A stretch of DNA of 64,000 nucleotides from Candidatus Colimorpha pelethequi (GTDB taxonomy: Bacteria; Bacteroidota; Bacteroidia; Bacteroidales; P3): positions 1 to 64,000 of the forward strand of contig JAGHVO010000030.1 of NCBI GenBank assembly GCA_018064245.1, given 5' to 3'. The notes under the pieces were generated by a model. That model saw nothing but the letters and a program-made list of their open reading frames with translations. It ran no database searches and was not told where the DNA came from. How positions within the stretch are numbered: the first letter of the stretch is position 1; every line of letters starts with the position of its first letter. Positions 50,512-52,435 of this stretch are shown piece by piece. Position numbers and translations under genes: made by a program.

Positions 50512-50547
50512 AGGGTTGTCGGACAGTTGTCCGACAACCCTATTTTT
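50512..50547 (+). terminator. Palindromic terminator after the peroxiredoxin gene
   Basis: AGGGTTGTCGGACA/TGTCCGACAACCCT, a perfect 14-bp inverted repeat around two bases, then ATTTTTT. Confidence 0.85.
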
Positions 50548-50549
50548 TC

Positions 50550-50587
50550 GTAACAAAAACGTAACCGAAATGTAACGGGAATGTAAC
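50550..50587 (+). promoter_or_regulatory. Four GTAAC direct repeats with 11-bp period (PHO-box-like operator)
   Basis: GTAAC starts at 50550, 50561, 50572 and 50583, each exactly 11 bp from the last. The extended unit is YGTAAC-N5. PhoB/PhoP boxes in other phyla have the same 11-bp direct-repeat layout. The last copy lies about 22 bp before the -7 box at 50609, where an activator would contact RNA polymerase. The downstream gene is a phosphate transporter. Confidence 0.6.
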
Positions 50588-50608: not shown

Positions 50609-50616
50609 TATTTTTG
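50609..50616 (+). promoter_or_regulatory. -7 box (TATTTTTG) for the Na/Pi transporter
   Basis: TATTTTTG, about 95 bp before the ATG at 50711. No good -33 element, as expected for an activated promoter. Confidence 0.55.
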
Positions 50617-50710: not shown

Positions 50711-52435
50711 ATGAATATACTAATTATTCTTTTGAATTTCGCAGGAGCCTTGGCGCTCTTCCTTTTCGGTATGAAACTGATGAGCGAAGGCCTTCAAAAG
50801 GTTGCCGGCAACAAGATGCGCGACATCTTGGGCAAGATAACGAACAATCCTTTCCGAGGCATCCTCACGGGTACGGGCGTGACCGTAGCCATTCAGTCCT
50901 CCTCAGCCACAACGGTGATGGTTGTGAGTTTCGTAAATGCAGGCCTGCTTACGCTGGCAGGTGCCGTGGCAGTCATCATGGGCGCCAACATCGGAACAAC
51001 CGTTACAGCATGGATTATCACATTGTTTGGATTGGGCGAAAGCAGCGGAGCCTTCAGCCTACCCATGCTATTGGGTGCCATCTCACTCATTTTCATGTTT
51101 TCCAGCAAGAGCAAACTAAAATCGTTGGGCGAGTTCATCATTGGTCTGGCATTGTTGCTGGTAGGCATGGAATTTCTGCAATCCGCCATGCCAAACCTCG
51201 AAGAATATCCCCGATTCTTGGAAGCCTTGGGCAATATGTCGGATTGGGGTTTCTGGTCCATCCTATTATTCGTCTTGATAGGCGCAGGACTCACCTGCCT
51301 GGTGCAGGCATCCGCCGCCATGATGGCGATCACATTAGTGATGTGTTACAAAGGCTGGATAGGTCTTGACGTGGCAGTGGCCTTGGTCATGGGGCAGAAC
51401 ATCGGAACCACCATTACCGCCAATCTCGCCGCCATGGTAGCCAACGCCGCAGGCAAAAAAGCGGCAAGGGCGCACTTGGTATTCAACGTAGTAGGCGTGA
51501 TTATCACACTGATTGTCTTTCGCCCCGTAATGAACCTGATTGCCACAGTAACAACCAGCATGGTCGGTGCCGATCCCTATGTTGCTGTAGGTGCCGAAGG
51601 CTATTCACCCGAAGCCATTCCCATGGCATTGTCGTTCTTCCACACCTTCTTCAACGTAGTGAACACATTGATTTTGGTATGGTTCATACCTGTCATCATC
51701 AAAATCGTGGAATGGATGGTGCCCACCAAGGCAGAAGATCCCGACGACGACTTCCAGCTGACCTACATCAAGGGCAACTTCATGGACACCGCTGAGTTGA
51801 ACATCCAATCGGCGCAAAGGGAAATTATCAATTTCTCGAAACGCGTGCTGCGCATGTATAGTTTCCTGCCATCGCTGCGCACGGCAAAGAGCGAAGAGGA
51901 GTTTGACGAAACCATGGAACGGATCGAGAAATACGAGCGCATCACCGACCACATGGAGCTGGAAATCACACAATTTCTGTCGAAAGTGGGTACTGGCGAA
52001 ATTTCTCCCGAAGGCTCGCAACGCATCAGCGGCATGCTGCGCATAGTCGATAATTTGGAAAGCATCGGCGATGCCATCTACCAGATTGCCATGCTGCGGA
52101 AGAACAAACGTAGCGATGCGGTGCATTTTGCCCAAAACCTGAACGACAACCTCGAACAGATGACCTCCTTGGTACAGAATACCTTGGAAGTGATGGACGA
52201 GAACCTGAAGGGTGACTACAGCAAGGCCGACCTCGACAAGGCCTACGAAGCCGAAAAAGCCGTGAACCAATACCGCGACCTTCTGCGCCACCAGCACTTG
52301 GACGCCTTGAAAAACAGCACCTACGACTACGCCATTGGTTCCGCCTACAGCGGACTCTATGCCCTGTACGAGAAACTTGCCGACTACGTCATCAACGTTT
52401 CCGAAGCCGCTTGCGGCAAGAAACTCGAAGACTAA
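50711..52435 (+). CDS. Na+/phosphate cotransporter with PhoU-like tail
   Basis: 574 aa from the ATG at 50711; an earlier TTG at 50642 adds a non-conserved leader. The NptA/PNaS-type membrane domain has repeated glutamine-rich signatures, GVTVAIQSSSATT (near 56-68) and VQASAAMMAITLVMCYKGWIG (near 198). The C-terminal ~190 residues are a PhoU-like helical domain. It imports inorganic phosphate with sodium. The GTAAC repeats upstream support control by phosphate. Confidence 0.92.
   Translation: MNILIILLNFAGALALFLFGMKLMSEGLQKVAGNKMRDILGKITNNPFRGILTGTGVTVAIQSSSATTVMVVSFVNAGLLTLAGAVAVIMGANIGTTVTAWIITLFGLGESSGAFSLPMLLGAISLIFMFSSKSKLKSLGEFIIGLALLLVGMEFLQSAMPNLEEYPRFLEALGNMSDWGFWSILLFVLIGAGLTCLVQASAAMMAITLVMCYKGWIGLDVAVALVMGQNIGTTITANLAAMVANAAGKKAARAHLVFNVVGVIITLIVFRPVMNLIATVTTSMVGADPYVAVGAEGYSPEAIPMALSFFHTFFNVVNTLILVWFIPVIIKIVEWMVPTKAEDPDDDFQLTYIKGNFMDTAELNIQSAQREIINFSKRVLRMYSFLPSLRTAKSEEEFDETMERIEKYERITDHMELEITQFLSKVGTGEISPEGSQRISGMLRIVDNLESIGDAIYQIAMLRKNKRSDAVHFAQNLNDNLEQMTSLVQNTLEVMDENLKGDYSKADLDKAYEAEKAVNQYRDLLRHQHLDALKNSTYDYAIGSAYSGLYALYEKLADYVINVSEAACGKKLED

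Follow-up and report, generated by a model that had tools for sequence, protein, structure and literature searches.

The pentamer GTAAC is repeated four times with an exact 11-bp period upstream of a Na/Pi cotransporter gene in the 64-kb stretch of Bacteroidales DNA analysed here (the window). The question raised by this array is whether it is the Bacteroidales counterpart of the PHO boxes known from other phyla, as suggested in an earlier note made from the sequence. That note placed the GTAAC copies at 50550, 50561, 50572 and 50583, with about 22 bp between the array end and a −7 box and a phosphate transporter as the gene that follows. All four copies were read directly at these positions, without slippage of the period. 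The distance to the −7 box (TATTTTTG) was measured as 21 nt and the next gene encodes a Na/Pi cotransporter (TIGR00704) whose start codon is found at 50711 (Table 1). A strong terminator lies directly 5′ of the repeats, so that the array stands at the start of the intergenic promoter region before the cotransporter gene. No TTTG −33 box is present at the usual distance from the −7 box of the window and no sigma-70-type promoter was found in the array/promoter region.

Table 1. Coordinates of the array, its promoter and gene context in the window, and of the two-component genes encoded elsewhere in the host genome.
Feature	Position	Strand	Description
Putative PHO-box unit 1	50550..50554	+	GTAAC, then spacer AAAAAC; read from sequence
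Putative PHO-box unit 2	50561..50565	+	GTAAC, then spacer CGAAAT; read from sequence
Putative PHO-box unit 3	50572..50576	+	GTAAC, then spacer GGGAAT; read from sequence
Putative PHO-box unit 4	50583..50587	+	GTAAC; at expected site of Bacteroidetes −33 element
−7 box TATTTTTG	50609..50616	+	Matches Bacteroidetes TAnnTTTG; 21 nt 3′ of unit 4
Intrinsic terminator of peroxiredoxin gene	50512..50541	+	13-bp stem, T run; just 5′ of array
Na/Pi cotransporter with PhoU-like C-terminal domain	50711..52435	+	TIGR00704, PF02690 + PF01895; predicted target gene; 100% self match in homologue search
PhoB homologue	G000:C42:80777-81373 (L035:1123-1722)		Best match Bacteroidetes PhoB model
PhoR-like kinase	L035:1781-2611		276 aa; HisKA + HATPase only

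The arrangement found in the window is conserved in the family of the host, as seen in the upstream regions of 89 distinct Na/Pi cotransporter homologues. Of these 89 regions, 63 have two or more exact KTAAC units with 11-bp period and 39 have three or more, counts that are not independent because related species share ancestry. Dinucleotide shuffles of the same regions yielded on average 0.28 with at least two units (maximum 2), and periods of 8–10 and 12–14 bp gave 0 or 1; the double period of 22 bp was found in 35, as expected. The last unit is spaced from TAnnTTTG by 10/11 bp in 20 promoters, by 21/22 bp in 34 and by 32/33 bp in 9, which accounts for all 63. These offsets vary by whole 11-bp steps and never by a fraction of a helical turn, as is characteristic of a protein that has to bind on a fixed side of the helix with respect to RNA polymerase. 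The promoter of the window falls in the 21-nt class, where the −33 site is taken up by the last unit. A TTTG −33 box is absent from every promoter with 10/11- or 21/22-bp spacing (54 in total), an absence that is weak evidence when taken alone because the promoters of homologues lacking the box seldom have a −33 element either. In the 32/33-bp class the last unit is upstream of −33, and some members show TTTG or TTG near this position. The matrix derived from 217 units reads A/T, A/T, C/T, G (65%) or T (33%), T, A, A, C, A (63%) or C (20%), A (55%) or G (33%), A/T; the box consensus is [C/T][G/T]TAAC[A/C]AA at 11-bp spacing.

An unbiased scan of 190 genomes of the family for three exact units separated the matches in two classes, satellites and arrays with unlike spacers. 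The satellites are dispersed, species-specific 11-bp tandem repeats with a TTAAC/GTAAC core and near-constant spacers, found in many places (genomes G025, G045, G053, G055, G026 and G089). Nearly all unlike-spacer arrays among the matches listed and inspected are positioned upstream of Na/Pi cotransporters. The exceptions among the matches listed adjoin a small PepSY-like lipoprotein gene (PF11396) in three genomes, and one of these arrays sits just behind a damaged Na/Pi gene. The lipoprotein has 149 aa (loci L259, L260 and L261, the last with the array in reverse orientation) and is a possible additional member of the regulon. The enrichment near phosphate genes for which the earlier note proposed to look is observed across the relatives, non-satellite arrays being almost only upstream of Na/Pi cotransporters (matches listed). 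In the host genome the scan hits one promoter, that of the Na/Pi cotransporter. Targeting of pst, phoA and pho genes, about which the note asked, cannot be shown in the host since the motif is found at a single promoter and neither PstC nor PstB was found (see below).

The same matrix, trained only on arrays of the host family, was run on the pstC regions of other Bacteroidales families (~200 kb). At a score of at least 14 it identified 11 distinct arrays, ten of them directly upstream of phosphate-type genes; as pst loci are chosen loci, this enrichment describes position inside them and not a whole-genome rate. The ten precede genes for PstS (six; L288, L297 and L304 assigned by NCBIfam and the other three by sequence likeness), PstC (one), phosphate-porin-like proteins (two; one weak PF07396 match and one by likeness only) and a PhoB-like regulator (one; its best NCBIfam match is PhoB, below cut-off). 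Among the control loci, 103 kb were free of arrays and 121 kb had 1 (counted twice, as two loci overlap); distant Na/Pi loci had 4 arrays in 321 kb, three of which are upstream of the transporter. The last unit is again found 10 bp before TAnnTTTG in L304, L306 and L317. A strict search directly upstream of pstC returned one match only because many operons begin with pstS, a difficulty solved by longer upstream regions and the matrix. No clear box upstream of pstC was found by the matrix in the two f24-family genomes examined. In L306 a second, weaker array (− strand, at 2313) precedes a phosphate-porin-like gene in the locus that also carries a pstS box.

The host genome codes for two OmpR-type (PF00486) regulators only, a PhoB homologue and an RprY homologue. 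The PhoB homologue scores 251.8 bits on the Bacteroidetes PhoB model, under the curated cut-off of 270 bits, and its gene is adjacent to that of a PhoR-like kinase. A kinase of similar length (276–300 aa) is encoded beside PhoB in 23 of 26 family loci (L328-L352 range) and no kinase neighbour was found in the other three; the PhoR-like kinases of other families are longer. According to alignment, the host PhoB misses ~20 residues between its receiver and DNA-binding parts, at the place expected for the N-terminal strands of the effector. Orthologues of ~200 aa devoid of this inter-domain stretch are also found in relatives (L328-L342) and in many species of the genus, others being full length.

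The box follows the presence of PhoB. It is found before at least one Na/Pi gene in 23 of the 25 family genomes with a PhoB orthologue and in none of the nine without it (Fisher p ~1e-6 for 34 scorable genomes, with kinship ignored and several PhoB-less genomes being incomplete MAGs). The two remaining PhoB-bearing genomes showed no box at the transporter promoters examined. Several of the nine orthologue-less genomes carry another PhoB-like regulator, whose recognition helix is of the DVNI type. PhoBs of other families are also of the DVNI type, among them that of G191, which has a box at pstC; the helix type alone therefore fails to explain the distribution of the box. No box was detected by the matrix upstream of phoB in the host genome or its family.

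PHO boxes consist of direct repeats of 11 nt that are occupied in tandem, with a consensus that differs between species (PMC4415409), and in the structural model from E. coli PhoB overlaps the −35 region (PMC3348028). The E. coli box (core CTGTCAT, at least two 11-nt repeats) and the arrays described here have in common direct 11-bp repeats in several units, phased with the core promoter over the −35/−33 region, enrichment upstream of phosphate-uptake genes and a PhoB-type regulator of the OmpR family in the genome. The PHO-box-like layout recognized by the earlier note thus holds for every feature compared but the E. coli core. The note had also pointed out that the pentamer differs from the PHO boxes of other phyla, in agreement with the core [GT]TAAC[A/C] found here instead of TGTCAT. 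Further differences to E. coli are the partner element, here the Bacteroidetes TAnnTTTG −7 box, and an array length and offset that vary by whole 11-bp steps. The PhoP box of B. subtilis is an 11-bp tandem of TT[ACT]ACA. It shares the 11-bp tandem organization with the cyanobacterial and Streptomyces PHO boxes and with the present arrays, and the TTAACA form of the unit in relatives of the host resembles the PhoP unit. The boxes of these three groups differ from the arrays by phylum and promoter and by the dominance of GTAAC in the latter (the first core position is G in 65%). Another close known system is the PhoRB regulon of B. fragilis, a Bacteroidales in which induction of pstC by low phosphate requires PhoB and in which EMSA showed PhoB to bind this promoter directly (PMC3547664); the host, in contrast, has a Na/Pi cotransporter in place of detectable PstC/PstB. 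The words “consensus” and “binding site” were not found in the text of that study, and our search of the literature, mostly open papers, retrieved no described Bacteroidetes PHO box and no rule for recognizing PhoB sites in Bacteroidales.

The array in the window is thus very probably a Bacteroidales-type PHO box at which PhoB, bound head-to-tail to the four 11-bp repeats, replaces the −33 element and activates the Na/Pi cotransporter gene. The suggestion of a Bacteroidales PHO box in the earlier note is supported by arrays conserved and phased at Na/Pi genes, by arrays before pstS, pstC, porin-like and PhoB-like genes in other families and by the co-occurrence of the box with PhoB; PhoB binding, activation rather than repression and the response to phosphate are predictions drawn from this pattern. 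When phosphate is scarce, the neighbouring PhoR-like kinase would phosphorylate PhoB, which would then occupy the direct repeats on one DNA face. As the −33 position is taken up by the last unit, we propose that PhoB makes up for the contact missing there. It would hold the primary sigma factor over the −7 box and so turn on the cotransporter gene.

Other readings of the array have to be weighed against this activator role of PhoB. The repeats could in principle be a chance or satellite tandem repeat devoid of regulatory role, considering that satellites with the same core are dispersed in several genomes of the genus. The satellites of the family (TTAACTTCCCT, GTAACTTGACA and others) have near-identical spacers and many copies, whereas the three spacers in the window are unlike, which excludes a simple satellite. 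Pattern searches of the host genome (G000, 2.38 Mb) with three GTAAC or KTAAC units and 0–1 mismatch found the window array as the only match; in the 64-kb window it is the sole three-unit match even when up to 2 mismatches are allowed, against a mean of 0.06 expected by chance. Exact two-unit KTAAC matches occur in 9 places of the genome, 3 of which are within the array, and the remaining six are not followed by an in-register −7 box. This uniqueness, together with the placement of the array with respect to −7 box and gene, which is conserved among relatives, speaks against a fortuitous repeat, and we consider an array without function hardly credible.

It is also unlikely that the array is an operator of RprY or another factor, with an indirect link to phosphate. 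Apart from PhoB, RprY is the sole PF00486 protein of the host, and OmpR-family regulators often use tandem sites of 10–11 bp. Against this assignment, other families have this code in front of pstS, pstC, porin and PhoB-like genes, and the box is absent from the 9 genomes without a PhoB orthologue. Several of these nine keep best matches of the RprY kind (residues 4–120, ~40–46% identical), which suggests that RprY is present there without the box. A further reading keeps the PHO box but lets PhoB repress or act in another mode, for example from a class I site requiring an intact −33 element, as could fit the 9 of 63 family promoters with the 32/33-bp spacing and the TTTG or TTG seen in some of them. 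The window promoter and 54 of the 63 family promoters have a unit overlapping or inside a core promoter that lacks a TTTG −33 element, an organization like that of class II promoters activated by PhoB. High-affinity uptake genes are, moreover, normally induced by low phosphate, and repression or a class I mode appears quite improbable, even more so than RprY.

With activation by PhoB as the preferred reading, the composition of the host regulon raises the question of how phosphate is sensed. In the 95% complete host genome PstC was not found, no PstB candidate scored over cut-off (the top candidate resembles an ABC ATPase for polar amino acids) and a stand-alone PhoU was not detected. The pstSCAB and phoU set by which a Pst-PhoU controlled Pho system is recognized is accordingly not complete. 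PhoU domains were found only inside two Na/Pi cotransporters. Among these two copies, only that of the window has the box; the paralogous gene on contig C67 has no array upstream. In the absence of Pst and PhoU, phosphate might be sensed by the PhoU-like domain of the transporter. More tentatively, and with the odds rather against it, the phosphate regulon might have been cut to nearly a single-gene loop: Pst and stand-alone PhoU would have been lost, PhoR would have lost the N-terminal region used for sensing, and the Na/Pi cotransporter would be both the main PhoB target and the sensor setting PhoR activity. The host is a gut/rumen-type Bacteroidales and belongs to a lineage where PhoB-PhoR apparently does without Pst and PhoU, so that the question of phosphate sensing can be asked there.

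The occurrence of the same code before phosphate-uptake genes across Bacteroidales would provide a first workable rule for recognizing their Pho regulon. The motif and its 10/21/32-bp register to the −7 box could serve to predict Pho regulons in this dominant gut order, in which PhoB of Bacteroides fragilis matters for growth at low phosphate and for survival in abscesses. Elsewhere in the window, the segment 53522-57359 codes for two adjacent GmrSD/DUF262-type proteins (PF03235), preceded by a Sir2 gene and followed by a DNA alkylation repair gene, and is a possible defence locus.
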